Source: Desulfitobacterium dichloroeliminans LMG P-21439
GTDB lineage: Bacteria; Bacillota; Desulfitobacteriia; Desulfitobacteriales; Desulfitobacteriaceae
NCBI RefSeq assembly: GCF_000243135.2
Contig: NC_019903.1
Span: 3,200,001-3,264,000, forward strand
Direction: 5' to 3'
DNA length: 64,000 bases
Part shown: piece after piece, positions 33,163-59,028 of the stretch
Position numbering within the stretch: the stretch's first letter is position 1
Layout: each line of letters starts with the position of its first letter
Program-made: the position numbers and the translations under genes
Notes under the pieces: model-generated
Told to the model about the DNA's origin: nothing
What the model saw: only the letters and a program-made list of their open reading frames with translations
Databases searched by the model: none

Positions 33163-33167
33163 CTGAA

Positions 33168-33555: not shown

Positions 33556-33558
33556 TAA

Positions 33559-33641
33559 TTATGTTGAGTGGTTATACCGCAAATCTTATATACGGGCGGC
33601 ATAACCACTCATAACTCTACATAATATATCGCTCAACATAA
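33559..33641. repeat. Right end of the RIT element with hairpin and paired motif
   Basis: TTATGTTGAG at 33559-33568 faces its inverted copy in the terminal repeat at 33614-33641. Between them TGAGTGGTTAT (33565-33575) and ATAACCACTCA (33601-33611) form a perfect 11-bp stem that could stop the recombinase transcript. The layout mirrors the left end. Confidence 0.6.
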
Positions 33642-33673
33642 GACGAGTTATGTAAAGCTTCGCATAATTCGTC
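33642..33673. repeat. Palindromic 32-bp segment at the right RIT junction
   Basis: GACGAGTTATG and CATAATTCGTC face each other around TAAAGCTTCG. It is not part of the expected IS66 coding sequence and repeats the GACGAG/TTATG pattern of the junction. It may be a scar of earlier RIT recombination or an added target sequence. Confidence 0.5.
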
Positions 33674-37262: not shown

Positions 37263-37272
37263 ATTATCCCTC

Positions 37273-38040: not shown

Positions 38041-38177
38041 CAAAAGTCTCCTCATATATCAACGGCTTACTTGTTAAGTATAAACATACAAATCGTTTAA
38101 GTCACTTTAGTATTAGAAATCGAAATTAGCCAACCCCCAAATATGAAGATTCTCTTTCAACTTCTAAAAACACAAAT

Positions 38178-39779
38178 TTATTCCTTTTCAATATCTAAGT
38201 GACGGCACCAAAAATCAAGTGATGTAGCCTCCTCCATCCGTTTTCGATAAGTTTCAGCAGCTTTCCGATACCCATGTAACAGCTTAACTGACATTTTAAT
38301 AAATTGTAAACCGTAACTTATTAGCATAATTGGGAAATATATCAACGAGCCATCATGTAATGACTCCTTACTTCGCTGTATCAATTCTATGTTTAGAGAC
38401 TCTTCGTCCGTTTGAAGTAGAAAATCAATGCCTTTAAGAAAATCATTATAGGCTCGCAACAAAAAGTTAAGTGCAGAGTAGTTTCTTTTCAAAAGCTGCT
38501 TTCCCATAGCTAATAACAACTTAACAATATGGGCAAGCGCTCCGAATTGCGGAAAGTGGATAGCAGTCAGAATAGTTCCGTTCCGTTTATTGTAATACTG
38601 CAAATACGCCCTGTACTTGAAGTCAAAATATTCATGCCATATCCCTATTCCATTCACGAGAAGAATTTTATTAGAAAGCCGGATTCCATATTCCATGTCA
38701 TCCATTTTAATAAATAGTGGGAGAGGAAAATTATTATCATCAATTAGGCTAAGCGGAATGCACATATACCACCAGCCACTATAATTTACGAATTCCTCAT
38801 GTTCATTGAATACTAACTTTTCTCTTACACGTAAATCAAAGTTAGGTTTTATACTTTTAACACGCATCCCTTTCCAAAAAGCACCTGCTTCATGCTGCAG
38901 ATATGGCAAATCCTCTCTTATCATACTTGCACCAATACAAATGTCAAGGCGCTCAGCTCTTAACACTTTTAGAAAAGTTATTGTCCTTGCTAGTACCTCA
39001 CCCTCGAACAATATATCATCATCCATCAACAACACATGGGTATATTCATCACTCCGCTTGTATGCTTCAATAATGCCGCGAGTAAATCCACCACTTCCAC
39101 CATAGTTCTTGTTTTCAAATACTTTTACATGTTCACTTTCAACCTGTGCTGCATCAATCGTATGTCCGTTATCAACAATAAAAAAGTTTAAATTATTTCT
39201 AACAGGTGAACGCGGATTACTAAATATATAGTCGTTTGCAGTTCTAATGTTACGATAAACAAACTTCTCGCGTTTGTAGGTGCAGATAATAAAAGCAACT
39301 TTGACTGGATTGACCTTATGAGCAGTTTCATCAATAAAGTAATGTCCACCAAAAAAAACAGCTTCATCGGATAGGGCTGTCAACTCTATATAGTAAATCC
39401 CTTCGGATCTATCAGACGTAAAGTTGTGTGTGAATTTAAACTCACTAATTTCAGAGGACTCTATCCGATGCTCCTGCAAAACCTCGTTTAGACTCTCTGA
39501 TTCATGTCTGGCCGCAAACAATCTTACTAAAAACTTTCCCGTGATCCTTAAAGAGATTCCGACACAATCTACCCATGTATACTTCAAATATTTTGAATAA
39601 GAAAAGCAATTAAAGTAGGTATCAAAGGAAATTAATGCACCTTTCTTGAGTTTTATTTCCTGCGACTGTTCATTGTAGGTGACACTATTATCATAACCTG
39701 AAGATGGAACCGTTCTAAAGTACAGTTCCTCCTCGTTACAGATACCTGATTTTGGGAATATAAAACGGAATAATTCCAT
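38178..39779 (-). CDS. Galactofuranosyltransferase GlfT2-like (GT2 family)
   Basis: The protein has 533 residues. An N-terminal beta-rich domain (about 1-160) precedes a GT-A domain with VAFIICTYKRE, VDNGHT and the metal-binding LLMDDDI at about 250. KMDDMEYGIRL and WHEYFDFKYRAYLQYYNKRN follow, as in GlfT2-type enzymes that add galactofuranose from UDP-Galf. The neighbouring UDP-galactopyranose mutase supplies that donor, which strongly supports the assignment. No signal peptide is seen, so it acts at the cytoplasmic face. Confidence 0.88.
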   Translation of the reverse strand: MELFRFIFPKSGICNEEELYFRTVPSSGYDNSVTYNEQSQEIKLKKGALISFDTYFNCFSYSKYLKYTWVDCVGISLRITGKFLVRLFAARHESESLNEVLQEHRIESSEISEFKFTHNFTSDRSEGIYYIELTALSDEAVFFGGHYFIDETAHKVNPVKVAFIICTYKREKFVYRNIRTANDYIFSNPRSPVRNNLNFFIVDNGHTIDAAQVESEHVKVFENKNYGGSGGFTRGIIEAYKRSDEYTHVLLMDDDILFEGEVLARTITFLKVLRAERLDICIGASMIREDLPYLQHEAGAFWKGMRVKSIKPNFDLRVREKLVFNEHEEFVNYSGWWYMCIPLSLIDDNNFPLPLFIKMDDMEYGIRLSNKILLVNGIGIWHEYFDFKYRAYLQYYNKRNGTILTAIHFPQFGALAHIVKLLLAMGKQLLKRNYSALNFLLRAYNDFLKGIDFLLQTDEESLNIELIQRSKESLHDGSLIYFPIMLISYGLQFIKMSVKLLHGYRKAAETYRKRMEEATSLDFWCRHLDIEKE

Positions 39780-39799
39780 GCTTTGATCTCCATCCTGTA

Positions 39800-40912
39800 C
39801 TATACAGTATAATCGCCAAACTCGAGAGCAATGGCCTCAAGCGCTGAGTTTATCACCTTATCCATATCATAATACTTATAGCTTCCAAGCCTGCCCCCAA
39901 AGATAACATTGCTTTCGGCTTCAGCAAGTCTTGTGTACTTAGCATACAGCGCATCATTTTTATTATTGTTAACCGGATAATACGGATCATCACCAGGTTT
40001 CCATTCAGAAGGGTACTCTGTAGAAATCACAGTTGTAGGTTGTTTTCCAAATTCAAAATGCTTATGCTCAATAATTCTAGTGTATGGCACCTCACGCTCT
40101 GTATAATTGACAACAGCATTACCCTGATAATTATCGCATTCTAACCGTTTATGTTCGAAATTTAAAGAACGATATTCTAGGTATCCTAGCTTATAGCCAA
40201 AAAAAGAATCAATCATACCCGTGAAAATGGTTTTAGAGGCACAGTCTTTTTCAAACTCAATAAAATCAAAGTAATCCGTATTCAGTCTCACCTCAACCCC
40301 GGAGAGCATCTTTTCGACAATAGGGGTATAACCGCCGATAGGGATTCCTTGATAGCGGTCATCAAAATAATTATTGTCATAAGTAAAACGCAGGGGAAGT
40401 CTTTTGATAATAAAAGCAGGAAGCTCTGTGCATGCACGACCCCATTGCTTTTCGGTATATCCCTTTACCAATTTTTCGTAAACATCCCTACCAACCAGTG
40501 AAAGGGCCTGTTCCTCTAAATTTGAAGGCTCTGTGATACTTAGCTCTCGGATTTGCTCTTCAATTATTGCCTTTGCCTGAGACGGTGTTTTGATATTCCA
40601 CATTTTGCTGAAGGTATTCATATTGAATGGTAAATTATATAATTCGTTTTTATATGAAGCAATAGGAGAATTGATGTAATTATTAAACTTCGCAAACTTA
40701 TTGATGTACTGCCAGACCACTTCATTATTGGTATGGAAAATGTGCGCACCGTATTTGTGTACATTGATTCCATCAATAGATTCACAATATATGTTACCAC
40801 CAATGTGGTTACGTTTATCAATGACTAGGCAATTTTTACCGCGCTTCTTTGCCTCATTAACGAAGACGGAACCAAACAGACCTGCGCCTACTACAAGATA
40901 ATCGTATTTCAT
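39800..40912 (-). CDS. glf: UDP-galactopyranose mutase
   Basis: The protein has 370 residues, the family length. The flavin-binding VVGAGLFGSVFVNEAKKRGK lies at the N-terminus, followed by DKRNHIGGNIY. Downstream, KQWGRACTELP and RLPLRFTYDNNYFDDRYQGI line the substrate site. Near the C-terminus FGGRLGSYKYYDMDKVI closes the flavin site. The enzyme uses reduced FAD to convert UDP-galactopyranose to UDP-galactofuranose. It lies between the galactofuranosyltransferase and a DUF4422 gene, three to twenty bases from each. The UDP-galactose could come from either galE. Confidence 0.96.
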   Translation of the reverse strand: MKYDYLVVGAGLFGSVFVNEAKKRGKNCLVIDKRNHIGGNIYCESIDGINVHKYGAHIFHTNNEVVWQYINKFAKFNNYINSPIASYKNELYNLPFNMNTFSKMWNIKTPSQAKAIIEEQIRELSITEPSNLEEQALSLVGRDVYEKLVKGYTEKQWGRACTELPAFIIKRLPLRFTYDNNYFDDRYQGIPIGGYTPIVEKMLSGVEVRLNTDYFDFIEFEKDCASKTIFTGMIDSFFGYKLGYLEYRSLNFEHKRLECDNYQGNAVVNYTEREVPYTRIIEHKHFEFGKQPTTVISTEYPSEWKPGDDPYYPVNNNKNDALYAKYTRLAEAESNVIFGGRLGSYKYYDMDKVINSALEAIALEFGDYTV

Positions 40913-40915
40913 ATT

Positions 40916-41833
40916 CTATGATCCTCTCACACCATTCAATAACTTCTTGACTAAAGCGCGTCGCCGTGTGCCAGGAGGTAACAGAGTGTAAATACGCTTC
41001 ATTTGCGAAAAATTATCTGTTTCCCCTTGGAATGCTTCAAAATGGGCGCGCGGCAATTCGGCATAACACACGTGCGGCTGTTTTTTCAGCCACGTGTAAT
41101 AGATTCCAAAAAGCCTCTCTCCTAAAAATCCATCTACTCGAGAGGCCTTTCCGCTATATTTTGAATAATCTGCAATGCGGTCAAATTCAGTCAGGATACT
41201 GAACAGCCAAGCACAGTAGCTATTGAAAATCTCCTTTTTCATAATGAACATATTGCAGAAATAATGCTTGGTATTATTCATGTATTCATTTGCTGACTCT
41301 GTAAAGTTGGGAAATTTCTCTGAGATAATGCTTAGAATCAAATCTAAATCCTCAATAAAATTAAACGCTGTATCTTTGTAGTGATTGTAGATGGAAACAT
41401 ACATCTCCTCCGCAATTGGTGCAATAACTTCATAGCGAGAGATAAGTCTGCTCAAACCTTCAACATTAAACTTAAGAGCGTCCAACGTCTCTGGAGTTGG
41501 TTCGTCAAATATTTTGTATGGTATCACCGGCTTGTGAGATGACTGCGTGTTTAAATCCACTAAATAACGTTCGTCAAAACAAAGATAGCGCCTGTAATGG
41601 AAAAAGCCAACGTAATCGGCCTTATCGTTTTTCCATACCCAATACTGAGCTGTAAGCTCACAGTATGATTTGTTTTTTAATGAAATTGAATCACCCGTAT
41701 CGTCATAAAGCATCCCCTCTAGCCTTCTTGGGCTCAGAGCAGCACCAACCTGAATTGGGTAAAGCAGAGGATGTATGGGTACATAGTAATCCTTGTGGCA
41801 GGATACATAAATTTTTATTATATTTTTTCCCAC
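40916..41833 (-). CDS. DUF4422 glycosyltransferase
   Basis: The protein has 305 residues. The DUF4422 signature is clear: IYVSCHKDYYVPIHPLLYPI, then ELTAQYWVWKN, DYVGFFHYRRYLCF and FLGERLFGIYYTWL. Members are glycosyltransferases of surface-polysaccharide loci, usually thought to transfer a hexose or galactofuranose. It ends four bases before glf, so it is co-transcribed. The acceptor and the sugar are not known. Confidence 0.88.
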   Translation of the reverse strand: MGKNIIKIYVSCHKDYYVPIHPLLYPIQVGAALSPRRLEGMLYDDTGDSISLKNKSYCELTAQYWVWKNDKADYVGFFHYRRYLCFDERYLVDLNTQSSHKPVIPYKIFDEPTPETLDALKFNVEGLSRLISRYEVIAPIAEEMYVSIYNHYKDTAFNFIEDLDLILSIISEKFPNFTESANEYMNNTKHYFCNMFIMKKEIFNSYCAWLFSILTEFDRIADYSKYSGKASRVDGFLGERLFGIYYTWLKKQPHVCYAELPRAHFEAFQGETDNFSQMKRIYTLLPPGTRRRALVKKLLNGVRGS

Positions 41834-42026: not shown

Positions 42027-42986
42027 TCAATTTGAACATTTAAAATTTTCGCTTTTGGGAGGGAAATCGTTAGTATCAAACCGAGGTAATATAAACCTAT
42101 CGCAGACAGAAATATCCGCAAGGGCTACTTCAGTTGTCACTCCAGCTATAGCTCCTTGGCTCTTCACATAATCGATCACCGTTTCGCTACAAGAGCCATA
42201 AGGATAACAACAAATCCAGTGATTAGGATCAACTATTCCATCAAACACCTGTAAGGCATTCTGAATATCGTTTTGCAATTGCTCTTGCGTCAGTCGGTTC
42301 ATCCAATAATGATCATAACCGTGAATTCCAAACAACATTCCCTCTTTTGACATGAGCCTAACTTGATCCTCACTCATGTATAATTCCTGTGCAAAAGCCT
42401 CCTCGGACATACCAACACATTTATTAAATAACTCTTTTACAATTAGATGACGAAGGTTCTCCTCTAATTCCACTTGAAGCAAACGCTTCACAAATATTAC
42501 TTCAGCACTATCAAATCGATTTGCTTTTGCCAGTTTAATGTAAAGTTCTTCATTTGCCGGTATATCAAATTCATTTCCACGGTAATAATCAAGCCGATCA
42601 TAAACAAAAGAAAGCAGTTTATCAATTGGTGTGCTTGCCAAAATAAAATGAATCATATTAACATCTAACAATTTATGCTCTGCCAGTATCTTACCGGGCA
42701 TCGAGAAAAAGCCTTGTATTCCGTTTTCCTTTAATATTGGAAATACATTTGTATAGTGGTCTATATAACCATCATCGAATGTGAGGAGCACACTTTTTTT
42801 CGGTAGAGCTCTCCCTCCGTCTATTGCTTCAAGCAGTTGCTCGAAGGAAATAAAATTCCCATATTCTTTTAAGAAAGCTATCTGTTGACGGAAGAGTACC
42901 AAATCCAGGCCCTTAATATCCGAATAACGACTGGAAGCTATACTACGCACATAATGGTACATAATAATAGAGACTTTATTGTTCAT
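42027..42986 (-). CDS. Polysaccharide deacetylase (NodB family)
   Basis: The protein has 319 residues from ATG 42986, eight bases after GAGGAG. The catalytic motif TFDDGYIDHYTNVFPIL at about 70 gives the two Asp of motif 1. The family His motif is unclear, although HGYDHYWMNRL near 225 could supply it. There is no signal peptide, so it would act in the cytoplasm, perhaps on a glycan intermediate. Its start overlaps the end of the acyltransferase-like gene by 11 bases. Confidence 0.82.
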   Translation of the reverse strand: MNNKVSIIMYHYVRSIASSRYSDIKGLDLVLFRQQIAFLKEYGNFISFEQLLEAIDGGRALPKKSVLLTFDDGYIDHYTNVFPILKENGIQGFFSMPGKILAEHKLLDVNMIHFILASTPIDKLLSFVYDRLDYYRGNEFDIPANEELYIKLAKANRFDSAEVIFVKRLLQVELEENLRHLIVKELFNKCVGMSEEAFAQELYMSEDQVRLMSKEGMLFGIHGYDHYWMNRLTQEQLQNDIQNALQVFDGIVDPNHWICCYPYGSCSETVIDYVKSQGAIAGVTTEVALADISVCDRFILPRFDTNDFPPKSENFKCSN

Positions 42987-44019
42987 TACAATCACTCCTC
43001 AGCCAGTTCGGTCTATCTTGGTCAGCATCGGCTTTGAAAACATAATAAGGTTCTTCAAAAGATGTGTGATACCACATATCAATGTTTTCTTGAACAAAAG
43101 GCTCAAAATAATTAGGAATTATATTTAAGTCATCTTCCGTTTTTAAAACAAAACCAGCTTTAGCCATAATTACGTGATCAATTCCTTGCTGATAAAAATC
43201 TATATACTCGTATTTATTATTAATCATAATATTGTTAATTGATCTACCCGCTTCACCGAGTGCATTATCCTCACCTATAAAGTCAACAATTCTAAGTATT
43301 TTACTTCCATTTCGCTCGATCTCTCTACCGACGAGCACAGCCTTTACCTTAGATTCCGATTCAATACCCCAAATATTATAATTATAAATCGGATGTTTAA
43401 AATAACGTTTTTCAAAATACCATTCATCCTTATAAGGCTTACGCTGCGAATAACCCAAATCAAATTTGCTCCTCAACTCTTCCATTGTTGCAAGTTCAAT
43501 CAGGTTGTTTTCTCCATCTACCTCATCAAGAATTCGTTTATCTTTTATAACTGCTATCCTATATTCCTCTATATTGGCTAAACGATAGTAGTGTCTCAGA
43601 TGCCCAATCGTTTGGTCTTTCATTGTTTTCATAATTCGTACTGTTGTCTTTGGATTCAGCCCGACCCCGCTATGAGATTTGGCACCTGTTATTTTACAGA
43701 TATTCTTCATTAGCAACTGACCTAGAAAAGGCACCTTACACTCGGAACTAACCTTCCAAAGCGATCCCCACAAATCGCAATTAGCCAAGTTTTTAGAAGA
43801 CTGATAAAATGCAAAAATACAGTCAATCTTTTTTGTTTCTTTGTTAATTGCTAAAGCAACGTTAATTCTGTTTCCAACAGCATACTCATAGTTAAACAAC
43901 TTTCTGGATTTGACTAAAATATGTTCAGGATTCCATTCCTTCTTAATAAACTCTTGAACCCTTTCGACATCTTCTATCGTACCTAATCGGAAATAATGCG
44001 TTTTCGTTTCAATATCCAT
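42976..44019 (-). CDS. GNAT-like acyltransferase of the glycan locus
   Basis: The protein has 347 residues. The N-terminal part (FRLGTIEDVERVQEFIKKEW) and KSHSGVGLNPKTTVRIMKTM look like a GNAT or FemAB-type fold, as found in many surface-glycan clusters. It probably adds an acyl or aminoacyl group to a sugar or to the product of the LuxC/transketolase block just upstream. It follows the transketolase genes after 13 bases. The exact reaction is unknown. Confidence 0.6.
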   Translation of the reverse strand: MDIETKTHYFRLGTIEDVERVQEFIKKEWNPEHILVKSRKLFNYEYAVGNRINVALAINKETKKIDCIFAFYQSSKNLANCDLWGSLWKVSSECKVPFLGQLLMKNICKITGAKSHSGVGLNPKTTVRIMKTMKDQTIGHLRHYYRLANIEEYRIAVIKDKRILDEVDGENNLIELATMEELRSKFDLGYSQRKPYKDEWYFEKRYFKHPIYNYNIWGIESESKVKAVLVGREIERNGSKILRIVDFIGEDNALGEAGRSINNIMINNKYEYIDFYQQGIDHVIMAKAGFVLKTEDDLNIIPNYFEPFVQENIDMWYHTSFEEPYYVFKADADQDRPNWLRSDCNEQ

Positions 44020-44032: not shown

Positions 44033-44998
44033 TTATTCTATTTCCAGAATTCTAGCCACAATTTTTTCTGCAGTTAATCCACATTTATCTAGCAAATATT
44101 TATATTCTCCAGCTTTCCCAAATGCATTTGGCAAACCAATAATCAGCTGTTTTGGTGTACCTTCCTTACCCGCCTTGTATTCAGCAACTGCACTACCTAA
44201 TCCACCAATATTACCGTGCTCCTCCACTGTGACAATTAGATTATGACTAGCAAAAATCTCATCTAATATTTTAGTGTCCAAAGGTTTAATCGTATGCATA
44301 TTAATAACTGAAGACCTTATTCCTTGCTTTTCGAGTATTTCTGAAGCCCGCAAAGCTTCATATACCATACTACCCGTAGCAATTATTGCAATGTTTCCAC
44401 CATTTGTAAGTTGTATAGCTTTTCCAATGCTAAATTCATAATCTTTGTCATATACAATTGGGTGATTTGCATTACCTGTTAATCTAATATAAACAGGCCC
44501 TGAGTACTCTGTTGCCGCAATTGTTGCTTTGATTGTTTCTGCAGCATCTGCAGGCGAAAGAACACACATATTGGGTATCGCTCTTGTTATAGCTATATCT
44601 TCAATTCCATAATGTGTATTTCCAAAAAACCCCATCGCAACACCGCTTGCTAAACCAACTATTTTTACATCAAAATTCATATACGATACGCAATTTCGCA
44701 TCTGTTCAATTGCTCGCATTGAGGCAAAGGTTGCAAAGGTTGTCGTGAAAACTTTGTATCCCTCTTTTGCTAGGCCTGCTGCCATTCCAACCATATTCTG
44801 TTCTGCAATTCCTGTATTAATTAAACGGTCGGGAAATGCATTTTGAAAACGATCTAGCCCTGAAGTATTACACAAATCCGCAGTGAGTACCAAAACATCC
44901 TCACGCTGCTGCCCAATATCTAAAAGAGCTACACCCAATGCGCCCCTTTCTCCAAGCATCGACCATGTACGAATATTCTTTCTATTAAAATCAAGCAT
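44033..44998 (-). CDS. Transketolase, C-terminal subunit
   Basis: The protein has 321 residues. It contains the pyrimidine-binding domain with the catalytic Glu in TGIAEQNMVGMAAGLA and the C-terminal domain (TVEEHGNIGGLGSAVAEYKA). It forms one enzyme with the N-terminal subunit, whose gene overlaps it by eight bases. Together they transfer a two-carbon ketol group with thiamine diphosphate. Split transketolases in glycan loci usually serve unusual sugars and not central metabolism. Its position in an acyl-reduction block suggests an aldehyde acceptor, which is inference. Confidence 0.9.
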   Translation of the reverse strand: MLDFNRKNIRTWSMLGERGALGVALLDIGQQREDVLVLTADLCNTSGLDRFQNAFPDRLINTGIAEQNMVGMAAGLAKEGYKVFTTTFATFASMRAIEQMRNCVSYMNFDVKIVGLASGVAMGFFGNTHYGIEDIAITRAIPNMCVLSPADAAETIKATIAATEYSGPVYIRLTGNANHPIVYDKDYEFSIGKAIQLTNGGNIAIIATGSMVYEALRASEILEKQGIRSSVINMHTIKPLDTKILDEIFASHNLIVTVEEHGNIGGLGSAVAEYKAGKEGTPKQLIIGLPNAFGKAGEYKYLLDKCGLTAEKIVARILEIE

Positions 44999-45836
44999 CT
45001 CTGTTTTCCCCCGTTAATTCAGCTAAAGCCATTTCAAGCTGTTGCTTGGTAAGTCGCCCATGATGCCATTCTCTATTATTTTCAATAAAAGAAACTCCTT
45101 TTCCTTTTACTGTTTTTGCGAGCAAGACATGGGGTACCCCTTGTAATGGTATATTTGATAGCTGTGCATATAATTCTTCAACGTTATGTCCGTCTCCCTG
45201 TTGCACATTCCATCCAAAACCTTTCCACGCAGCCTCCATATTCGACATTTTCATCAAATCATCACAGAATCCATCGCTCTGCATCCCATTATAGTCTATA
45301 ATAGCCACCAAATTATCGAGATGAAAATGATAAGCACTCATTGCCGCTTCCCAAATTGAACCTTCGTTGCACTCACCATCTCCTAGTAAAACAAAAACGC
45401 GATGTTTCTGAGCCTTTCGCTTTGCTGCTAGAGCCATTCCGACGGCAATCGGCAGCCCCATTCCAAGACTACCACTTGAGATTTCAATACCCTTCTCCAT
45501 ATTCATAGAAGGTTGCCCGGAGAAAATACCATCATTCTCTTCAAATGTAAATAACTCTTCTCGTGAAAAATATCCACTCTCACATAAAGCTGTGTAATAT
45601 CCAAGCGTCCCATGGCCTTTACTTAGAATGAATCTGTCACGTTCATCCCAATTGGGATTTGAGCTTAAATGCCTCATAACGCCACCATAGAGTGTAGCTA
45701 ATATCTCAATAGTTGAAAGTCCTCCGCCTATATGCGCTCCATTATTTCGCGCATGATATGCTAGTTCCAGTGCCGTTCTTCTCATTCGCATAGCTATTCT
45801 ATTTATGTTTTCTATCAATTCTTTATTATCTTCCAC
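44991..45836 (-). CDS. Transketolase, N-terminal subunit
   Basis: The protein has 281 residues from GTG 45836, eight bases after AGGAGGG; an upstream reading would overlap the SDR gene deeply. The thiamine-diphosphate motif GDGECNEGSIWEAAMSAYHF runs to IIDYNGMQSDG. HIGGGLSTIEIL and SKGHGTLGYY supply the phosphate and cofactor His residues. The motifs are intact. It is co-transcribed with the SDR genes, 13 bases after the second one. Confidence 0.9.
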   Translation of the reverse strand: MEDNKELIENINRIAMRMRRTALELAYHARNNGAHIGGGLSTIEILATLYGGVMRHLSSNPNWDERDRFILSKGHGTLGYYTALCESGYFSREELFTFEENDGIFSGQPSMNMEKGIEISSGSLGMGLPIAVGMALAAKRKAQKHRVFVLLGDGECNEGSIWEAAMSAYHFHLDNLVAIIDYNGMQSDGFCDDLMKMSNMEAAWKGFGWNVQQGDGHNVEELYAQLSNIPLQGVPHVLLAKTVKGKGVSFIENNREWHHGRLTKQQLEMALAELTGENRDA

Positions 45837-45849
45837 AGTAAATTCCCTC

Positions 45850-46590
45850 CTACATACCTCCATCAACACGAAAAACCTGCCCTGTGATATAAGATGCTCT
45901 GTCTGAGGCAAGAAACGCTGCAGTATTTGCAATTTCAATTGGTTGCCCGATACGCTTAAGGCAACTGTTCATAACTGTCTCGTTTATCACTTCGTCCGAC
46001 ATACTTTGACCCACCATATCAGTATCTGTTATGCCAGGGGCGATAGCATTTGCCCGAATACCAGAAGCGCCCAGCTCCTCTGCTATTGCTTTTGTTTGAC
46101 AAATTACGGCCGCTTTACTTGCTCCGTAAGCAGCGCGTCCTGCATTTCCATCCAGCGCAGCAGAAGATGCGATATTCACAATACTCCCAGCTTTATGTTT
46201 TAACATCTGTTTAATCACAAATTGTGTAAACAAAAATGGGCCAAAGAAATTAATCTGGAAGGTCTCCTTCATTTTTCCCATGGAAGTCATTTGGAATAAT
46301 GCATTATAAGTAACTCCTGCATTGTTAATCAATGAATCCACCGAAAGCTTATCAGCCGCGATGGTTTTAAATCCAGCTTTGATCTGATTCTCATCAGCAA
46401 TATCGAAGTATATTGGCTTAACCCAAACTCCGTATTTCTGCGCAATCCCAGTAATTTCTGCTTCAAATTCATTATTTTTATTTCTCGCACAAGCCCAGAT
46501 ATTTGCGCCATTCTTTGCAAACACCTCTACCATTGAATGTCCTATTCCGCGATTCGAACCTGTAATGATTACGTTTTTTCCCTTAAGCAT
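45850..46590 (-). CDS. Short-chain dehydrogenase/reductase (FabG-like) 2
   Basis: The protein has 246 residues. TGSNRGIGHSM binds NAD(P). The catalytic Ser is in IVNIASSAALDG, with YGASK supplying Tyr and Lys. The C-terminus TGQVFRVDGGM is classical. It is about half identical to the next gene by eye, so the two are tandem duplicates with perhaps different substrates. In this block it could reduce a 3-oxoacyl-ACP or the ketone formed by the transketolase. Confidence 0.9.
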   Translation of the reverse strand: MLKGKNVIITGSNRGIGHSMVEVFAKNGANIWACARNKNNEFEAEITGIAQKYGVWVKPIYFDIADENQIKAGFKTIAADKLSVDSLINNAGVTYNALFQMTSMGKMKETFQINFFGPFLFTQFVIKQMLKHKAGSIVNIASSAALDGNAGRAAYGASKAAVICQTKAIAEELGASGIRANAIAPGITDTDMVGQSMSDEVINETVMNSCLKRIGQPIEIANTAAFLASDRASYITGQVFRVDGGM

Positions 46591-46604
46591 ATTAATCTTC
46601 CTTT

Positions 46605-47348
46605 CTATCCGATACCACCGTCAACACGGATAACTTGTCCAGTTACAAATGATGATAAATCCGAGGCTAAAAACACTATTGTATTGGCCACTTCCTCATC
46701 AGTTCCTAAGCGTTTAAGCTCACATGGTTGAATCAAACCCGCTTTAACTACATCAGATAGACTTCGCGTCATCGTTGTATCAATAACACCTGGTGCAACT
46801 GCGTTTACACGTATATCTGATGCCGCAAGCTCCTGTGCCATTGTTTTCGTCGCAGAAATCAATGCCCCTTTAGCCGCACTGTAAGCCAGCTGTCCCGCAT
46901 TTCCGTCTAACCCCGCAATTGATGAAATATTGATGACACTCCCTCGTTTATTCCGAGCCATTAGTTTTGTAACGAACTGTGAAATCTGCATCTGTGAGAA
47001 GAAATCTACTTCAAATACGGTTTTCATTATATTCATGCTTGTCATATGGAATAGTGCATTATGTGTCATGCCTGCAATATTGACAAGAGCGTCAATTGGC
47101 TTCTTGTCAGCCATAATCGACTTAAGTCCTAATTTAATAGACTCCGGATCCGTTAAGTCAAAATATATTGGTTTTATCCATACTCCGAACTGTTCGCTCA
47201 ATTGCTGAATTTGCTTTTCTAATTCTGCATCTTCCCTCTGACAGCAAGCCCATATATTGGCACCCTCTTTTGCGAAAACTTCCATTGTTTTATTGCCTAT
47301 TCCGCGTAAGCATCCGGTTATAACCGCATTCTTTCCTTTTAATAACAT
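46605..47348 (-). CDS. Short-chain dehydrogenase/reductase (FabG-like) 1
   Basis: The protein has 247 residues from ATG 47348, eight bases after AAAGGAAG. TGCLRGIGNKT is the cofactor loop, INISSIAGLDG holds the catalytic Ser, YSAAKG the Tyr and Lys, and TGQVIRVDGGIG the C-terminus. Compared with the second SDR, the cofactor loop has a Cys and Leu. It follows luxC after 28 bases and is probably an NADPH-dependent keto reductase. Confidence 0.9.
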   Translation of the reverse strand: MLLKGKNAVITGCLRGIGNKTMEVFAKEGANIWACCQREDAELEKQIQQLSEQFGVWIKPIYFDLTDPESIKLGLKSIMADKKPIDALVNIAGMTHNALFHMTSMNIMKTVFEVDFFSQMQISQFVTKLMARNKRGSVINISSIAGLDGNAGQLAYSAAKGALISATKTMAQELAASDIRVNAVAPGVIDTTMTRSLSDVVKAGLIQPCELKRLGTDEEVANTIVFLASDLSSFVTGQVIRVDGGIG

Positions 47349-47376
47349 AGCTGTTTCTTCCTTTATCTTTTTTCTC

Positions 47377-48549
47377 CTATTTAAAATCAACAATTCTCGA
47401 TAACATCTCCACCACGTTATAGCCATCCCAGATTATTCCGATATCCATCGCAGTACCCACAGGAACAATCCTATCAATACCTCGGAACTTATTTTCTATA
47501 ACAGAGTTTCTAAGTAGGTCAACATCCATTCCGAAGTATGTTAGTGTCTGAAATTTTTCATTAATTAGAGGATACAATTCCTCAAAATTACTTAATGAAT
47601 ATTCATAAAAATATCCACATTTTCCTCTACATACTGTGAAGTCTTGTGGTAATGCATTAATTTCGATTCTGTAAAGAAGGTTATCTTGTTGCATACAACC
47701 AGACATTTTCTCAATATCTATAGCATCTTCACAAAGCTGAACGTATTTATCAACTGCAGATGCAGGTTGGACTATGTATTTCTGTTCGGCAACTTTATAT
47801 ACAGCCTCCCAAAACCTCGTTCTGGCTTCTTTTTTATCATTTATCCAAAATACAGTTTGCGGAGATGAGCAGGCATTTTGATCCATCAGAAAGGTATCAT
47901 TATAAAACCCCTCGGCTAGTTTCTTTATCGCAATATCATCCGCGGCTAATACTTTTTCTCCATTAATTATACAAACTGAATACCTGTCTGCAAAAGAAAT
48001 ATCAACACAGCGCGGTTTTGCAGGCATCGACCGTATTGCTTCAATAGTATTGTCTCCACCCCATATTATGCGAGCATCTGCCTCTGCGCTGAACATTTTA
48101 GTTGCGTCATGACCGGAAGGATATTGTACAAAAGCGTTTCTTTTAAACAAATCGGGAAAAGAAGCTAAAGTGCTTTCTATGGCTTGACAAATGATATCTA
48201 CTTGCGGAAAATATTTTGATGGTATACGAACAATATTTGCATTTCCAGCTAGGAGTGAAAACAAAAAAGAAAATGCAAAGTTTACAGGGACATTTGCTGG
48301 CGCGATGTGAAAAGCGAGACCGCGACCTAGCCGAGATAGTTTGCCCTGATAAAGTTTCTTCATCCTCACTACATTTGATCTTCGACACCAAAAAGCTAGC
48401 GATATTACATCCGGATACATCTTTGCTTTTTTGTCATTCATCAGATATTCTGACAAAACCTCCATAAAAGAACAAACTATATCATCGTACGGACGCATAG
48501 GTATATTACAAACGTCATTAGTACCCGCTATTAGTTTAACGCCGTTCAT
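47377..48549 (-). CDS. Acyl-CoA/acyl-protein reductase (LuxC-like)
   Basis: The protein has 390 residues. LuxC features are visible: GRGLAFHIAPANVPVNFAFS (NADPH and acyl site), GGDNTIEAIRSMP, and the catalytic Cys in DQNACSSPQ at about 225. LuxC reduces an acyl group, delivered as a thioester by LuxE, to an aldehyde. It overlaps the luxE-like gene by 14 bases. No luciferase genes are present, so this is not bioluminescence. The aldehyde probably feeds a glycan or related product made by the neighbouring SDR and transketolase genes. Confidence 0.88.
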   Translation of the reverse strand: MNGVKLIAGTNDVCNIPMRPYDDIVCSFMEVLSEYLMNDKKAKMYPDVISLAFWCRRSNVVRMKKLYQGKLSRLGRGLAFHIAPANVPVNFAFSFLFSLLAGNANIVRIPSKYFPQVDIICQAIESTLASFPDLFKRNAFVQYPSGHDATKMFSAEADARIIWGGDNTIEAIRSMPAKPRCVDISFADRYSVCIINGEKVLAADDIAIKKLAEGFYNDTFLMDQNACSSPQTVFWINDKKEARTRFWEAVYKVAEQKYIVQPASAVDKYVQLCEDAIDIEKMSGCMQQDNLLYRIEINALPQDFTVCRGKCGYFYEYSLSNFEELYPLINEKFQTLTYFGMDVDLLRNSVIENKFRGIDRIVPVGTAMDIGIIWDGYNVVEMLSRIVDFK

Positions 48550-49579
48550 AAGTATCGCTGCACCCCCTTATTTCTGCTCCCTTAACTCTCCCATAAATCC
48601 GAAAATATTTACCCTTACGTCCACACGGACAATCGTCTATTCCTAAAATCTCTCCCTCATCTTCTGTCAGCAAAACGTGTCCAGGATAACTCGTGGGTAG
48701 CAACGAGTTACATTGAATCAAACCTTTACCGCTTTCTTTCACTGAGAAATCCTTTGGGTCAAGTATGTTGACATCAGAAAATATCGAAGCGTGAAGATGA
48801 CCTTGCTCACATTCCATGAAAATTGAACCAGTTTGCTCAACCATTCCATAATAATTAAATATATGATCAATTCCGGTAATTGAACTAATTTCATTTTTGA
48901 ATGTATCATTATCTACTGCTAAATCGATTAATTTCTTCCATCCACCGCCATGAATCATCAATCCATCCATTGCTAAAGAAATATTCCTTTCCTTTAACGC
49001 CAAGTAGAAATACTCCCAAATCATAAACGTAAATCCAAATAACAATATTTTTTCCCCTGAATGTTTTTCGCAAAACGCTTCGATTACTGGCAGATTCAAC
49101 TCCATATTTTCATCTAATGCATAAGTAACATCCCTGCCCATCATGGAAAAACCCAATATTCCCGCTCCTCTGGCTGAAAACATATTTCTGTTTTTAAGCA
49201 CAGCACACGAATCAATGACTAACATAGGCATTCGTACTTTACCCGTGAAATCTGTAACGATCTTTGACAGTGCTTTCGACTGTCTAGCTGATGTTGCTCT
49301 ATCCAAAAATATCTTCGACACTGCCTGACCGCTAGTCCCAGAGGAAGTCATCGTTTTAATTACTTCCTCTTTTTTTATACTCAGTAAATCATATTTTTTA
49401 AAAAGTCGTACAGGTAGAGCTGCCCCCATACCTAAAACAGCGGATAGCTTCCTGTACTCTTCACAATTTTCACTATGATGCTTGGATAACTTTATAATTA
49501 CTTGATTATACAATCTATCCTTCTCTGCTTGAGCTAGTGAAAATGGAGGTATTAAAAACAATGCATCATAATCAATCAT
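48536..49579 (-). CDS. Acyl-protein synthetase (LuxE-like)
   Basis: The protein has 347 residues. The adenylate-forming motif TSSGTSGQA lies at about 78-86. The acyl-binding region DHIFNYYGMVEQTGSIFMEC and the Cys-rich end IDDCPCGRKGKYFRIYGRVK match the LuxE family. LuxE makes an acyl-AMP, then carries the acyl group on a Cys and passes it to LuxC. The gene lies seven bases after the AMP-ligase gene. Substrate length cannot be told from the sequence. Confidence 0.85.
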   Translation of the reverse strand: MIDYDALFLIPPFSLAQAEKDRLYNQVIIKLSKHHSENCEEYRKLSAVLGMGAALPVRLFKKYDLLSIKKEEVIKTMTSSGTSGQAVSKIFLDRATSARQSKALSKIVTDFTGKVRMPMLVIDSCAVLKNRNMFSARGAGILGFSMMGRDVTYALDENMELNLPVIEAFCEKHSGEKILLFGFTFMIWEYFYLALKERNISLAMDGLMIHGGGWKKLIDLAVDNDTFKNEISSITGIDHIFNYYGMVEQTGSIFMECEQGHLHASIFSDVNILDPKDFSVKESGKGLIQCNSLLPTSYPGHVLLTEDEGEILGIDDCPCGRKGKYFRIYGRVKGAEIRGCSDTYERR

Positions 49580-49585
49580 ACCTAA

Positions 49586-50968
49586 TCACCTCAATTCCGC
49601 ATACAATATTTTACCAGCCTCGTTTCGCGGAATTTTCTCTGCTTTACAAACCTCAAACGCACTTCTGTTCAGACCTGTCAGATTTGCAATCAATTTAAAT
49701 ACAGTGTCTGGTTGCCCATTTTCAAGATAAATCTTCATTAGGTCGTCTTTGCCTGTGCAAGCAACAATAAACCCATGCTTTTTCAGAAGACTTTCTATTT
49801 CGTCCAAATTCACTCGGTTGCCAAATATTTTTAAAAAACGCTTTTTCCGACCTACAATATAATAAAAACCATCTGTATCTTTCATGGCCATGTCCCCAGT
49901 TTTAAGAACACCGCCATTTCCATCTTCCTTAGCTAGATCCTCTTTGCAGGTAGCGTAACCCATTGTTACATTATCCCCATGATAAACTAATTCGCCTACT
50001 ATGTTCGGTTCTGTAATTGTTCCACCATTTTCATCCTCAAGCCAGAACTCTCCACCAGGAATTGCTATACCTATACTTCCAGCTTTACTAATTGCGTACT
50101 CTCTAGGAACATACGACATACGAGCTGTGGCCTCAGTCTGTCCATACATAACAACAAAGTCAATGCCCTTTTCTGAGCAAGCAGTGGCAAACTCTAAATG
50201 CCTCTCCTTGCCCAACTTACCTCCTGCTTGGGTTAGAACCTTTAAGTCAGGCAAATTCATTTTAGAAAACCTTAGTTTCTTAAGAATTTCATAGGTATAT
50301 GGCACGCCACCAAATGTGGTAGCACACTTCTCCTTAAGCAATTTCCAAAACGATTTTTCCATTAGAGTGGCATCGGTCAAGATTATTGATGCCCCCCTTA
50401 GTAAATGGCTGTTAATAATGGATAGTCCATACGTATAACTCATCGGGAGCGTAGTGATTGGTCTATCCTCGCCACTAATATTCAAGTATTGAGCAATTGA
50501 CTCGGCATTGCTATTTATATTGCAATAAGATTGACGCACCAGTTTAGGGCTCCCAGTACTACCTGAAGTTGTAAGCAGCAAAGCTAAATCCAGATTGATT
50601 TCAACTTCCTGCTGGTACTCCGTTTTAAATAAGGCATAATTCTTATACTCATAACATATTATTCCAGCACAAAACCCTTTGGGTGCCCATACATAGTGCG
50701 GCTCATAATTATATAATAGGTTCTTAAATAGCTCTGTATTAATTCCATGGTTAATCAACACGGGCACAACTCTCATCTGCAAAAAAGCGATATACCCTGT
50801 TATTGATTCAACATTATTATTACAGACGCAAAATACCAAACACCTTTCGTTTATCTGTTCTTGCAATTTACAAACTTCATTCTGTAGCTGTGCATAGCTT
50901 AGGCAATCTTGCTCACTAATTAGTGCTGTTGTTTCTCCAAAACTTTTGAGCATATCATAAAATGCCAC
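49586..50968 (-). CDS. AMP-dependent acyl ligase (acyl-ACP synthetase-like)
   Basis: The protein has 460 residues. P-loop LLTTSGSTGSPKLV is at about 131-144. AMP-site VMYGQTEATARM, GELVYHGDNVTMGY and KTGDMAMKDTDGFYYIVGRK follow, and the C-terminal Lys is in RNEAGKILYAEL. All adenylation motifs are present. It should activate a carboxylic acid as its adenylate and load it on the acyl carrier protein encoded immediately upstream. The gap to the ACP is two bases. The acid is unknown. Confidence 0.9.
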   Translation of the reverse strand: MAFYDMLKSFGETTALISEQDCLSYAQLQNEVCKLQEQINERCLVFCVCNNNVESITGYIAFLQMRVVPVLINHGINTELFKNLLYNYEPHYVWAPKGFCAGIICYEYKNYALFKTEYQQEVEINLDLALLLTTSGSTGSPKLVRQSYCNINSNAESIAQYLNISGEDRPITTLPMSYTYGLSIINSHLLRGASIILTDATLMEKSFWKLLKEKCATTFGGVPYTYEILKKLRFSKMNLPDLKVLTQAGGKLGKERHLEFATACSEKGIDFVVMYGQTEATARMSYVPREYAISKAGSIGIAIPGGEFWLEDENGGTITEPNIVGELVYHGDNVTMGYATCKEDLAKEDGNGGVLKTGDMAMKDTDGFYYIVGRKKRFLKIFGNRVNLDEIESLLKKHGFIVACTGKDDLMKIYLENGQPDTVFKLIANLTGLNRSAFEVCKAEKIPRNEAGKILYAELR

Positions 50969-50970
50969 TA

Positions 50971-51210
50971 TTACAACTCCACTTCATATTTTTTCATTAT
51001 TTCTTTACCCTTTTCATATGAACTAAAATCAATTATATCATCCGTATCCATCATAATATCATATGTGTCCTCAAGCTCGGCAATCAGCTGCATATGTCCC
51101 ACGGAATCCCATGTATTAACAGACTGATAAACCAACTCACTATTTAATTGTTCTTCACTTACCTCAAATACCTCTATGAACGCTGAATTGTACTTTTCTA
51201 GATTTGTCAT
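50971..51210 (-). CDS. Acyl carrier protein
   Basis: The protein has 79 residues from ATG 51210, eight bases after GGAGG. The phosphopantetheine attachment site is DSVGHMQ, with Ser at residue 36, in the usual place before a helix. The acidic helix LIAELEDTYDIMMDTDDI is typical. It is a dedicated carrier, not the fatty-acid synthase ACP, since its neighbours are ligase, LuxE and LuxC genes. It begins the block after the MBL hydrolase gene. Confidence 0.92.
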   Translation of the reverse strand: MTNLEKYNSAFIEVFEVSEEQLNSELVYQSVNTWDSVGHMQLIAELEDTYDIMMDTDDIIDFSSYEKGKEIMKKYEVEL

Positions 51211-51286
51211 AATAAGTTCCTCCAATAATTTTGTTTATAATTAAAGCAACATTTCACTGCTTTAAACCCCAAGTATTTTCATGATA

Positions 51287-51937
51287 TTATATCCAGTACT
51301 TATATTCTTTCAGCCTAAATTGATCATAATGCCCTGGATACACAATAGCTTCGGAAGGTAACTTCTTTAACAAAGGAAATGTGATATCCTTCAATTCTGT
51401 TTCGCTTCCTCCACGAAAACGTGTATAAGTTTTGCTCTCAAGAAACAAAGTGTCTCCAGAAAACAACATTTTTTCATCAACAACAATACAAATGCTTCCT
51501 TTCGAATGCCCTGGCGTTTCTATCAGATCTACCACATGATCTTGCCAATGAAAGTGTTTCTTCTTCTTAAATGTGAAATCCGCATGGCAAATATAATCCG
51601 CTATTTCACCAATGCTAATACCTTTTTCCATACTTTGGATTGTACAAAAAGCATCAAAATGTCGTGATTGGTTTAATCTTGGGTCACAAATACGTTGTCC
51701 ACATTCTCCACTACAAACTATAGGACATCCAAAATGATCCCGTAAATCGTTAGCTCCACTGATATGGTCATAATGTTCATGGGTTAGAATCAGATAATCT
51801 ACCGAATCCGCCGCTTTCTCGATTTTATTGATAACCTCTGCAGATGAGTATGGATCAATTACAATCATCCTTCGATTTTCAAGAATAAAATACATATTTG
51901 AGTGAAGTAATGGTGTCCTAACGTTCATAACCTGCAT
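51287..51937 (-). CDS. MBL-fold metal-dependent hydrolase
   Basis: The protein has 216 residues. The metal site THEHYDH at 52-58 supplies three His and one Asp. ETPGHSKGSICI and PGHYD give the next ligands. It resembles glyoxalase-II type thioesterases. In this locus it could release an acyl chain from the carrier protein or CoA, which is an inference from position. Its start overlaps the end of the glycosyltransferase gene by 20 bases. Confidence 0.85.
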   Translation of the reverse strand: MQVMNVRTPLLHSNMYFILENRRMIVIDPYSSAEVINKIEKAADSVDYLILTHEHYDHISGANDLRDHFGCPIVCSGECGQRICDPRLNQSRHFDAFCTIQSMEKGISIGEIADYICHADFTFKKKKHFHWQDHVVDLIETPGHSKGSICIVVDEKMLFSGDTLFLESKTYTRFRGGSETELKDITFPLLKKLPSEAIVYPGHYDQFRLKEYKYWI

Positions 51938-53026
51938 TAGATTCTACTCCTTCTAAGCTTCTTACAGTATTGCTAACCATTTCTTGAAGTTCACGAATAG
52001 AGTTTGGAATCATAACCCGTTTTTTATCCTTATAAATTGACATTAAGTCACTCGCATACCGCTCTGTCTTCCACTCTCCATTTTGATGATAATACTGATA
52101 TAATCTAAATGTAAAAATCACAAATGGTTCTTTCCCATACATAAATTTAGGATTTAATGCAATTGAAGAATTTCTTAGAATAAATATTTTCTTATTAAGT
52201 TCCATTTGTTCATAATTACTTTCAAAAAGATAGTTTTCATTATCGACGTAAATTCCTTCTAGCTCGAATTCCTGTAGTTTTTTGGGATCTTGTTTAATCA
52301 TAGTAGGATGAGGTTTAACTATGAGTTTTCTTGCGCCAACAGCTTCAATTATCGCGCTTAAAATTTCGTAAGTTTTGTCGTAATTATCCTCATAACCTTT
52401 TAATCTGCCTGGCGGGAAAAATAACACGTTTCGCTTATTATACCAAACGCTATGAACATCTTCTATACCTTTGCCTACTGATTCTAACAATTGTTGACAA
52501 ATTTCATTTTCATTTATTCTCTTCATGCCATGAGTAACAAGTTTAGGCATAACATGATTTAATTGCGGAGCATATAAATGTATACCCTTCACTAACCTTT
52601 TATAATTATATTTAAATTTACCTTGACAGAAAAATCGTATCAGGCTCTGTTTCACACCTTCATGTTGCCCATAACGAAATAAATAATTCTCTTCATTAAA
52701 ATAACTAATTGTACCTTCGTCATAAAACTCAACAATTAGCCTTGGATTTTTCCTATAAAAATAGTCAATAAGATATAGCGAATCAGTAAAAAAACTACCA
52801 GTCAGGAATATAGAATAATTAGCTTCGCCCTGCAATAAATTATCTAACGTTCGGTTATAATACTTCTTTCTTGCAATTGAAAAGAACAGCATACGTAAAT
52901 TGGGGATCCTACCAAACTTGAGTGACTTATAGTTAATTTGTGGAAGTTCAAGAAAATATATATTCCTATATAATCCACTTTTCTTTATACCACTAATAAA
53001 CTTGCTTGAAATACGTTCAGAGCTTC
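51918..53026 (-). pseudogene. KPHP-type glycosyltransferase, C-terminal part, split by IS1380
   Basis: The frame extends upstream of the internal ATG 52892, through RSSERISSKFISGIKKSG, to 53026, where the IS1380 element's target repeat begins. Joined with 54689-54785 (minus one TAATA) it gives 401 residues in frame. The rejoined protein aligns along its whole length with the paralogue at 54.8-56.0 kb. The signature KLIVKPHPT with ILRNSSIALNPKFMYGKEPF suggests a GT-B enzyme of the polysialyltransferase or GT52 type. The fragment from 52892 could still be made. Confidence 0.88.
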
Positions 53027-54787: not shown

Positions 54788-55972
54788 TTATACCTCCACC
54801 TCTGGTGACACTGAATTTGTCACACATATCTCTCTTAACGTATTTTGCAAATCGAAGATCGAATCTACTATTTTAATTTTATTTTTATTACTATAACAAC
54901 TCATCAAATCTAAAGCGTATAACTCCTCTGTCTGCCGATCCTCTTTTCGAATACAATTATAAATTCTATATGTGAAAATAATGAATGGCTCCTTGTTAAA
55001 TATAAACTTAGGATACATTGCAACAGTTGAATCCTTTGTCACTAATATTTTATTTTCCATATTCACCTGATTGAAAATCCCTTCAAATAAGAAATTCCGT
55101 CGATCAACAAAAACACCTGCATTCTCGTACTGAATTGCAAAATTCGGATCGTTTTCTATAGTTACGGGATGGACCTTAATTACAATCTGATCTTTTCCCA
55201 CTGTCTCAACCACTTGAGGAAGAATTTCGTTATATTTGTCATAAATCTCACCATCTCTATTTAATGTTGGTGTCGCAATATAATAGATAGTACGTTTATC
55301 GTATTGGCTAAAGTCGAATTCTTTATATACTTCTTTTAAGATTCCATAACAAACTTGGTTTGATTCATTGATCTGTAGAATTCTATATGGTTTCAGGATT
55401 TTCTTGTCACGGCGTAAATGGGGTTTATATAAGTAGATACTATCTACCATATTATTGCATCGTCTACTAAACCATCCAAAGTATAAAACCCTAATTATTC
55501 TTTCCTTTACCCTCCCGCCAATTATAACTTTACACAACCATTCTTTATCCGCATAGTAACCATTAATTCCTTCCTCAACAAAGCTAACCATTATATTTGA
55601 GTTAGTACTGGAAAAGTATCTCAAAAGAAAGATAGTGTCTGCCCAATACCCAGCTGTAAGCATCTTGCAATATACAGTATTTCCTACACTTGCTTTAAGC
55701 ACTTTATTATAATATTCTTTAAGATGCTTTCCAAATAAAAAATTTTTTATCAGTGGAATTTTTCCTAGTAAACTACATTCCAATGGAGAAGGAGGATCAA
55801 TATAAAATACGCTATTGAAAATCCTACTATCCTTTATGCTTTGAACAAGGCGCTCTGAAATTCGTTCTAGCTTAAGAATTATAAGGTCTGCCTCTTCTTT
55901 TTCATAAGAATTAACCTTAACATTCACTAAATTAATAAGCTGTGTATTTGTCCATCCATAGCAGACTATCAT
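54788..55972 (-). CDS. KPHP-type glycosyltransferase (intact paralogue)
   Basis: The protein has 394 residues from ATG 55972, six bases after GGAGAG. IVIKVHPVTIENDPNFAIQY and ILVTKDSTVAMYPKFIFNKE correspond to the HP and S motifs of GT-B sialyl/polysialyltransferase-like enzymes that use CMP-activated sugars. The CMP-nonulosonate synthetase upstream in the same locus supplies a suitable donor. I infer transfer of a legionaminic-type residue. It is the only complete one of the two paralogues; its stop is two bases before the start of the disrupted one. Confidence 0.75.
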   Translation of the reverse strand: MIVCYGWTNTQLINLVNVKVNSYEKEEADLIILKLERISERLVQSIKDSRIFNSVFYIDPPSPLECSLLGKIPLIKNFLFGKHLKEYYNKVLKASVGNTVYCKMLTAGYWADTIFLLRYFSSTNSNIMVSFVEEGINGYYADKEWLCKVIIGGRVKERIIRVLYFGWFSRRCNNMVDSIYLYKPHLRRDKKILKPYRILQINESNQVCYGILKEVYKEFDFSQYDKRTIYYIATPTLNRDGEIYDKYNEILPQVVETVGKDQIVIKVHPVTIENDPNFAIQYENAGVFVDRRNFLFEGIFNQVNMENKILVTKDSTVAMYPKFIFNKEPFIIFTYRIYNCIRKEDRQTEELYALDLMSCYSNKNKIKIVDSIFDLQNTLREICVTNSVSPEVEV

Positions 55973-56167
55973 TTTTTCTCTCCACTTTACTTGTTTATTT
56001 AAAAGGCAACGCATGTAACATAATTATACTTTACGTTTTTAAAGATATTAGTTAATTACATTTGGCACAATAAATATTTGAAAGTAAATATTTTTGAATA
56101 TTTTCGACATTATCTAATAATGCATCACACATATTTTAAATGAATTATGCTCAATTATGGTAATTAA

Positions 56168-59027: not shown

Positions 59028-59028
59028 A

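Follow-up and report, generated by a model that had tools for sequence, protein, structure and literature searches.

The 64,000-nucleotide window of the Desulfitobacterium dichloroeliminans LMG P-21439 genome analysed here (contig NC_019903.1, positions 3,200,001 to 3,264,000) carries on its minus strand a block of eight co-directional open reading frames (ORFs; 44033-51225), which encode an acyl carrier protein (ACP), an AMP-forming acyl ligase, LuxE-like and LuxC-like proteins, two short-chain dehydrogenases/reductases (SDRs), and the N- and C-terminal halves of a split transketolase (TK-N and TK-C). On balance this block is likely to be a cassette whose enzymes build a short polyhydroxylated acyl group as a decoration of a surface glycan. 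In the proposed pathway LuxE would activate a small carboxylic acid with ATP and pass the acyl group via its own cysteine to LuxC, which would reduce it to an aldehyde; the TK-N and TK-C pair would add a two-carbon ketol to the LuxC aldehyde; and one of the reductases (SDR1) would reduce the new ketone and SDR2 another carbonyl. The ligase and the ACP would carry the acyl chain, most likely by activating the finished acid, and a protein of predicted GCN5-related N-acetyltransferase (GNAT) fold encoded next to the block would move the acyl group to a sugar amino group, possibly one freed by a deacetylase. A similar route from acid through aldehyde, ketol extension and SDR reduction to the glycan had been proposed from the letters of this DNA and its translated ORFs (the sequence-only reading), and it is still the best fit to the comparative data, although we infer the reaction order, the acid, the ketol donor, the acceptor sugar and the product; for the "branched" chain that it allowed as a product nothing in the data speaks.

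The ORFs and Pfam matches bear out the eight tightly spaced genes of the families proposed, and their gene set and intact active sites are read directly from the sequence. The ACP gene (50971-51210; ORF open from TTG at 51225) has no Pfam match and only weak NCBIfam ACP matches, and its product has the phosphopantetheine Ser36 (Ser41 of the longest ORF) in an intact DSxGH site; the serine is kept in 80 of 80 homologues, and this ACP is the sole match to itself in the genome at E<=0.001. The ligase (49586-50968; PF00501, AMP-binding, 3.5e-39) has the catalytic Lys453 (76/76 homologues), the LuxE-like acyl-protein synthetase (48536-49579; PF04443, 2.2e-48) has Cys340 (88/88) and its profile matches the solved LuxE structure 7xc6_E, and the LuxC-like acyl thioester reductase (47377-48549; PF05893, 9e-29), predicted to form an aldehyde, has Cys227 (86/86) and a weak match to structure 7xc6_A. 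They are followed by the second reductase SDR2 (46605-47348; ORF open from 47426), which a tree places (99/97 support) in the clade of second reductases from transketolase loci with two SDRs, and by the transketolase-adjacent SDR1 (45850-46590), both matching PF13561/PF00106 (adh_short). TK-N (44991-45863; ORF open from TTG at 45938; PF00456, Transketolase_N, 1e-36) is the thiamine diphosphate-binding half with an intact GDG...N motif, and TK-C (44033-44998) comprises the pyrimidine-binding and C-terminal domains (PF02779, Transket_pyr; PF02780, Transketolase_C). Thus the ACP serine, the LuxC cysteine and the thiamine motif singled out earlier are all present, the first two being invariant in homologues. 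When the likely true starts are taken from internal Met codons (51210 for ACP, 47348 for SDR2, and 45863 for TK-N), neighbouring genes are spaced by only -14 to +28 bases, so the block reads as one operon.

Conservation was studied by a scan with a LuxE alignment of one genome per species (84,980 species), which gave at least 579 confirmed relatives; 80 loci were kept, and loci from plasmids and from the same class were added to give the 85 LuxE loci analysed. These are not independent, since L015 and L080 are identical in sequence and related loci are present. The ligase was found in 79 loci, LuxC in 78 and as a LuxE-LuxC fusion in 3 more, ACP in 69, and transketolase in 38, and 30 of the 85 had the full set of seven parts, namely, ACP, ligase, LuxE, LuxC, one or more SDRs, and the two transketolase halves. 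The complete sets span Bacillota, Pseudomonadota, Campylobacterota, Synergistota, Bacteroidota, Melainabacteria, and others. Among the 38 transketolase loci the order SDR, TK-N, TK-C was kept in 26, and each of two loci (L044, L047) has a second LuxE-LuxC pair and at least two transketolase sets. In two Helicobacteraceae loci (L027, L032) the eight genes stand in one run among housekeeping genes, and in Kosakonia (L064) a transketolase-type block adjoins flagellar genes, which we take to be fliZ and fliA; LuxE was present in only 4 of 369 genomes of the Kosakonia class, and the Kosakonia luxE-luxC stretch had no DNA match in E. coli genomes. The expectation of a conserved unit therefore stood insofar as the set recurs in many phyla, but a fixed eight-gene order was rejected: as judged from gene content, the conserved unit appears to be a four-gene core (ACP, ligase, LuxE, LuxC) with an exchangeable cassette.

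The contents of these loci are varied. A labelled sugar gene lies within the fetched stretch in 57 of the 85 loci, a labelled acyltransferase in 34, and a DegT aminotransferase in 35; together with the housekeeping surroundings of L027 and L032 this shows that the block does not always sit in a surface-glycan locus. Type II thioesterase genes are present in 10 loci, mostly between ligase and LuxE, and with the recurring metallo-β-lactamase (MBL) hydrolases they may point to a need to hydrolyse or edit thioesters, so that the ACP could act either before or after LuxE/LuxC. Gene fusions were observed for LuxE and LuxC in L028, L033, and L079 and for an MBL hydrolase and the ligase in L100. On Rhizobium anhuiense T24 plasmid pRA_T24_2 (L012; 5242-15024) transketolase, ACP, ligase, LuxE, LuxC, DegT, a GMC oxidoreductase, and FabZ adjoin a siderophore receptor gene with no obvious surface-glycan locus, and genes similar to this set are found on R. 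leguminosarum and R. beringeri plasmids.

The exchange of the second half of the set is seen in two classes of enzymes which do not occur with the block transketolase. A separate SDR clade, SDR-A (19 rows, 100/100 support), frequent in loci without transketolase and containing neither of the window SDRs, was present in 0 of 37 block-transketolase loci versus 14 of 48 others (p = 2e-4), and an IlvB-like thiamine pyrophosphate (TPP) enzyme in 0 of 38 transketolase loci versus 12 of 47 others (p = 4e-4); both p values assume independent loci, an assumption that related loci satisfy only in part. The IlvB-like enzyme (L029, L039, L042, L059, L067-L069, L079, L086, L090, L092, L100) is usually accompanied by NeuB and a FabA/Z-like dehydratase. 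The dependence of loci is less of a problem because transketolase is scattered over the LuxE tree, where its label changes 26 times, at least 12 of them forced by well-supported branches (27.9 with shuffled labels), and such frequent changes indicate that the core repeatedly exchanged its second half. On these distributions, the simplest reading would be one aldehyde with three fates, namely, reduction, ketol extension, or the formation of another carbon-carbon bond.

The block transketolase itself carries a residue pattern that fits this assignment; residues are numbered as in human transketolase. The equivalents of H37, K75, H77, E160, N185, K244, and H258 of TK-N are kept in 43 of 43 enzymes and those of E366 and F392 in all block enzymes, the window included in both cases, while the equivalents of H416, D424, and R474 are lost in 44 of 44 (A, F, and N in the window TK-C). 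All 24 canonical split enzymes compared retain the three residues; they comprise the second split transketolase of the same genome, the Carboxydothermus enzyme (6yak/6yaj), one copy from Fusobacterium, and 21 enzymes with lower scores from the family sample described below. In transketolase structures H416 and R474 touch the substrate phosphate and D424, which is D469 in E. coli, touches the hydroxyl beside the aldehyde; changes at E. coli D469 are known to favour non-hydroxylated aldehydes. The combined loss of these phosphate and hydroxyl contacts would be expected of an enzyme that acts on an unphosphorylated aldehyde with no hydroxyl beside it, like the LuxC product, and it also implies non-classical binding of the ketol donor. 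The hallmark of the block enzymes appears to be the loss of D424 together with R474. By phylogeny 43 of the 44 block TK-Cs, that of the window among them, form one clade with support 100, which also includes one Ruegeria copy; the lone block TK-C outside it (L037) is not adjacent to its core.

In order to avoid the bias of LuxE-based sampling, a block TK-C alignment was used as query against 299 genomes of one family, to which genome G086 with the Butyrivibrio locus L073 belongs. The scores were bimodal, with 8 genomes at 441-520 bits, two matches near 389, and the remainder, canonical enzymes, at 351 or below. LuxE was present in 8 of the 8 strongly matching genomes versus 22 of all 299 (hypergeometric p = 2e-10), and in all eight the equivalents of H416, D424, and R474 were again lost. 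The distance between LuxE and transketolase was below 4 kb in six of these genomes, about 16 kb in G561, and about 26 kb in G622.

Each half of the proposed chemistry has a precedent, in LuxC/LuxE short-acyl clusters and in the AziC5/C6 extension, respectively, and their combination is what would be new. The tetronate genes of Vibrio cholerae O1 (wbe/rfb KLMNO, VC0248-VC0252), like the block, belong to a surface polysaccharide cluster with a short hydroxyacyl group, 3-deoxy-L-glycero-tetronyl on perosamine. Among their products WbeL is presumably the acyl ligase, RfbK the ACP, and RfbN the LuxC/LuxE-like protein; in V. cholerae O1 a dehydrogenase reduces the aldehyde and no transketolase is known to take part, whereas the block has a split transketolase and SDRs instead. 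N-Tetronyl perosamine is formed via VC0248-VC0252, WbeL being a protein of 471 aa (PMC3441752). Like tetronate-type systems, the window combines ACP, AMP ligase, LuxE, and LuxC in a single operon of a surface-glycan locus, but it lacks a dedicated aldehyde reductase of the SDR-A clade, as found in the five-gene relatives. The flagellin islands of Aeromonas (Group II) and Enterobacteriaceae share ACP, FabG, AMP ligase, LuxE, and LuxC beside pse or other glycan genes, and in both papers a fatty or liposugar role was proposed and no transketolase was mentioned (PMC7874193, PMC4875605). The extension step is known from azinomycin, and from vazabitide-type pathways too, where the split transketolase AziC5/AziC6 adds two carbons to an acid-derived aldehyde (PMC9570651); unlike the block, this aldehyde is formed by a kinase and an ArgC-type reductase and then used by an aminotransferase. 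The window enzyme stands apart from one LysW-linked homologue of the LysW/Azi type, that of Streptomyces (L115), which is placed outside the block clade, keeps H416 and R474, and has Tyr at D424. With the lux fatty acid reductase the window shares the LuxC and LuxE domains with their catalytic cysteines, but it differs by ligase, ACP, and transketolase and scores below the curated cut-offs. A further system for comparison is the five-gene sfmABCDE operon of Shewanella oneidensis, whose NeuB-type, IlvB-type TPP, and FabG proteins are required for normal flagellin modification; it resembles the IlvB/NeuB cassette but is described without LuxE, LuxC, or ACP and has an ATP-grasp protein. In the open literature no paper was found that joins LuxE or acyl-protein synthetase with transketolase in a glycan context, which, with subscription journals mostly outside the search, is weak evidence of absence.

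As for the product, two leads come from versions of the core without transketolase, the V. cholerae O1 genes described above and the Aeromonas islands. In Aeromonas Group II islands ACP, FabG, ligase, luxE, and luxC stand beside pse genes (PMC7874193), and locus L107, with the Aeromonas-type gene order after a PseH-like acyltransferase gene, served as a stand-in for this arrangement. On A. piscicola flagellin there is a 376.14 Da derivative of pseudaminic acid together with a 102 Da moiety of unknown identity, and the 102 Da unit vanishes in a glycosyltransferase mutant. By computation Pse5Ac7Ac with one acetyl replaced by C4H6O3 has a mass of 376.148, and C4H6O3 is 102.032; both Aeromonas masses would fit a dihydroxybutanoyl group, an unproved assignment of our own which other C4H6O3 isomers fit too. 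In 7 loci a gene of the lactate dehydrogenase (LDH) family lies directly 3' of LuxC, and all seven have Arg at the position discriminating LDH from malate dehydrogenase (MDH), although their best overall score is to lactate dehydrogenase. Our best guess for the starting acid is malate, which would give malic semialdehyde and, after extension, a 2,4,5,6-tetrahydroxyhexanoyl (3-deoxyhexonyl) group with an acyl increment of C6H10O5, 162.053, isobaric with hexose; malic semialdehyde is unphosphorylated and has a CH2 beside the aldehyde and therefore suits the residue losses of the transketolase. It may tentatively be supposed, and here we are rather doubtful, that the route is widespread and unrecognised and puts sugar-like acyl chains on surface glycans as well as flagellins of bacteria, with the core making an aldehyde from a malate-like acid, the cassettes (SDR, transketolase, IlvB-like enzyme with NeuB) setting reduction versus lengthening, and the 162.053 group being misread as hexose. 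In S. oneidensis the flagellin modification carries a nitrogen-free C9H16O7 unit on a mono-acetyl pseudaminic acid (PMC3765264), and an N-acyl hexahydroxynonanoyl chain would account for such a unit.

Several facts weigh against the proposed pathway. The malate idea is founded on the seven loci and on five-gene relatives. Loss of D424 alone is no proof of a non-hydroxylated acceptor, because sugar-catabolic split transketolases (L116, L121, L123) lose it too while keeping R474, and even the joint loss of D424 and R474 occurs in Solidesulfovibrio L120. The window has Gln at the H110 equivalent, where 34 of 43 block enzymes have His, so its donor may differ. Genome G491 of the family sample has a looser relative (390 bits) and no LuxE above threshold, no glycan gene lies near the blocks of L027 and L032, and the acid used by LuxE need not be that used by the ligase, in which case the transketolase may not take the LuxC aldehyde as its substrate. 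Finally, on Ruegeria sp. PR1b plasmid pSD20 (L114; 7971-9749) dTDP-rhamnose genes adjoin a transketolase of the block clade and no LuxE lies close by, and among the matches listed in the LuxE plasmid tally there is no Ruegeria record. The TK-C half of this Ruegeria enzyme is annotated as an SDR family oxidoreductase.

The Ruegeria copy, the distances in G561 and G622, and the fact that the tandem of core and transketolase is inferred from gene order alone are also what favours a different explanation, according to which the core and the transketolase serve different decorations and have no common intermediate: the core would make a hydroxyacyl group, and the transketolase would act on a sugar aldehyde to give an unrelated ketose or a sugar with a lengthened chain. 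We consider this unlikely, since it would leave unexpected the exclusion of SDR-A and of the IlvB-like enzyme by the transketolase cassette, and the co-occurrence of LuxE with the block transketolase in all eight genomes and the complete blocks standing by themselves in L027 and L032 speak against it as well. The LuxE and LuxC of light organs act on tetradecanoyl chains, which counts for a lipid or fatty aldehyde pathway yielding a fatty acyl group or liposugar. Such a role is the published interpretation of the Enterobacteriaceae and Aeromonas flagellin islands (PMC4875605; PMC7874193), yet it is improbable here, as the Aeromonas masses fit short C4H6O3 groups instead, the similarity to true LuxC and LuxE is low (NCBIfam 40.2 versus a cut-off of 750 and 60 versus 550 bits, respectively), and neither transketolase nor the Arg-type malate/lactate dehydrogenase has a place in fatty chain synthesis. 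Enzymes of the NapB/NapD type reportedly load glycolyl onto an ACP in naphthyridinomycin assembly, and the presence of an ACP and a split thiamine diphosphate enzyme in one operon would allow the block transketolase to do likewise for an N-glycolyl group, with LuxE and LuxC serving another step; this is very improbable, given that no lipoyl E2-type protein was found by Pfam in the eight-gene block or directly beside it, that both window halves score better against transketolase than against E1 in NCBIfam, and that the exclusion of SDR-A and the IlvB-like enzyme would be left unexplained.

Two other functions were rejected. Bioluminescence has no basis, since no PF00296 luciferase was found in the genome, as the sequence-only reading had said of the block, and the control search gave matches in 10 of 14 genomes. 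A transketolase serving only central metabolism, the outcome which that reading had named as contrary to its proposal, was not what was found, because the genome has a separate canonical split copy at approximately G000:3,496,492-3,498,250, between ftsEX and prfB/secA.

The genes beside the block are on the minus strand as well. At a gap of 13 from TK-C lies a gene (42976-44019) whose product has no Pfam or NCBIfam match; with its AlphaFold2 model of moderate quality (pLDDT 69) Foldseek found GCN5-related acetyltransferase, NMT, and VipF (probability 1.00, E about 1e-6, TM of only about 0.4-0.46), and its homologues lie inside the block in L085, L099, and L090 and beside the block transketolase in L128. 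It is a predicted GNAT-fold acyltransferase which probably belongs to the block and is a candidate for acyl transfer. The next gene, overlapping it by 20 bases, encodes a polysaccharide deacetylase (42027-42995; PF01522, 7e-23), which may free an amine that is then re-acylated. Upstream of the ACP an MBL-fold hydrolase (51287-51937; PF00753), a candidate acyl-ACP thioesterase, probably belongs to the block too, as the MBL-fold gene adjoins the core in L014, L042, L062, and others and is fused to the ligase in L100. Both the acyltransferase and the hydrolase had been missing from the initial gene list.

The first gene of the operon (51918-52892), with no assigned family, is a paralogue of 54788-56014 (33% identity over 306 aa, E 1e-56), the two lying on either side of an insertion sequence; a transposase gene is directly upstream of the operon (53218). 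Neither product matches Pfam or NCBIfam, and they are possibly glycosyltransferases of an undescribed family. Further upstream are nonulosonic (sialic-type) acid genes (57298-63993), assigned by Pfam as cytidylyltransferase, two Gfo/Idh/MocA-type proteins, NeuC, NeuB, a PglD-type acyltransferase, and a CBS-nucleotidyltransferase, with NeuC (470 bits, cut-off 236) and NeuB (514 bits, cut-off 400) both above curated cut-offs. On the other side are glycan export and assembly genes (36525-41833), encoding by Pfam an ABC ATPase and permease, a GlfT2-like transferase, UDP-galactopyranose mutase, and a DUF4422 protein. With NeuB/NeuC, exporter, and sugar genes flanking the block, the region is a nonulosonic-acid surface-glycan locus, in agreement with the glycan setting first proposed. 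Elsewhere in the window two near-identical UDP-glucose 4-epimerase-like genes (14989-15981 and 25313-26305) are located about 10 kb apart in a stretch full of transposase/integrase ORFs (5665-6972, 27749-34432).

In summary, the proposed pathway, if true, would add the two-carbon extension of an acid-derived aldehyde to bacterial surface-glycan chemistry and would explain genes of flagellin islands that currently carry fatty acid synthesis annotations. The pathway would also propose an identity for the 376 and 102 Da unknowns of Aeromonas and imply that some "hexose" mass increments are polyhydroxyacyl groups. The block transketolases, in which phosphate recognition has apparently been lost, may by nature catalyse the extension of unphosphorylated aldehydes and could find use in biocatalysis.

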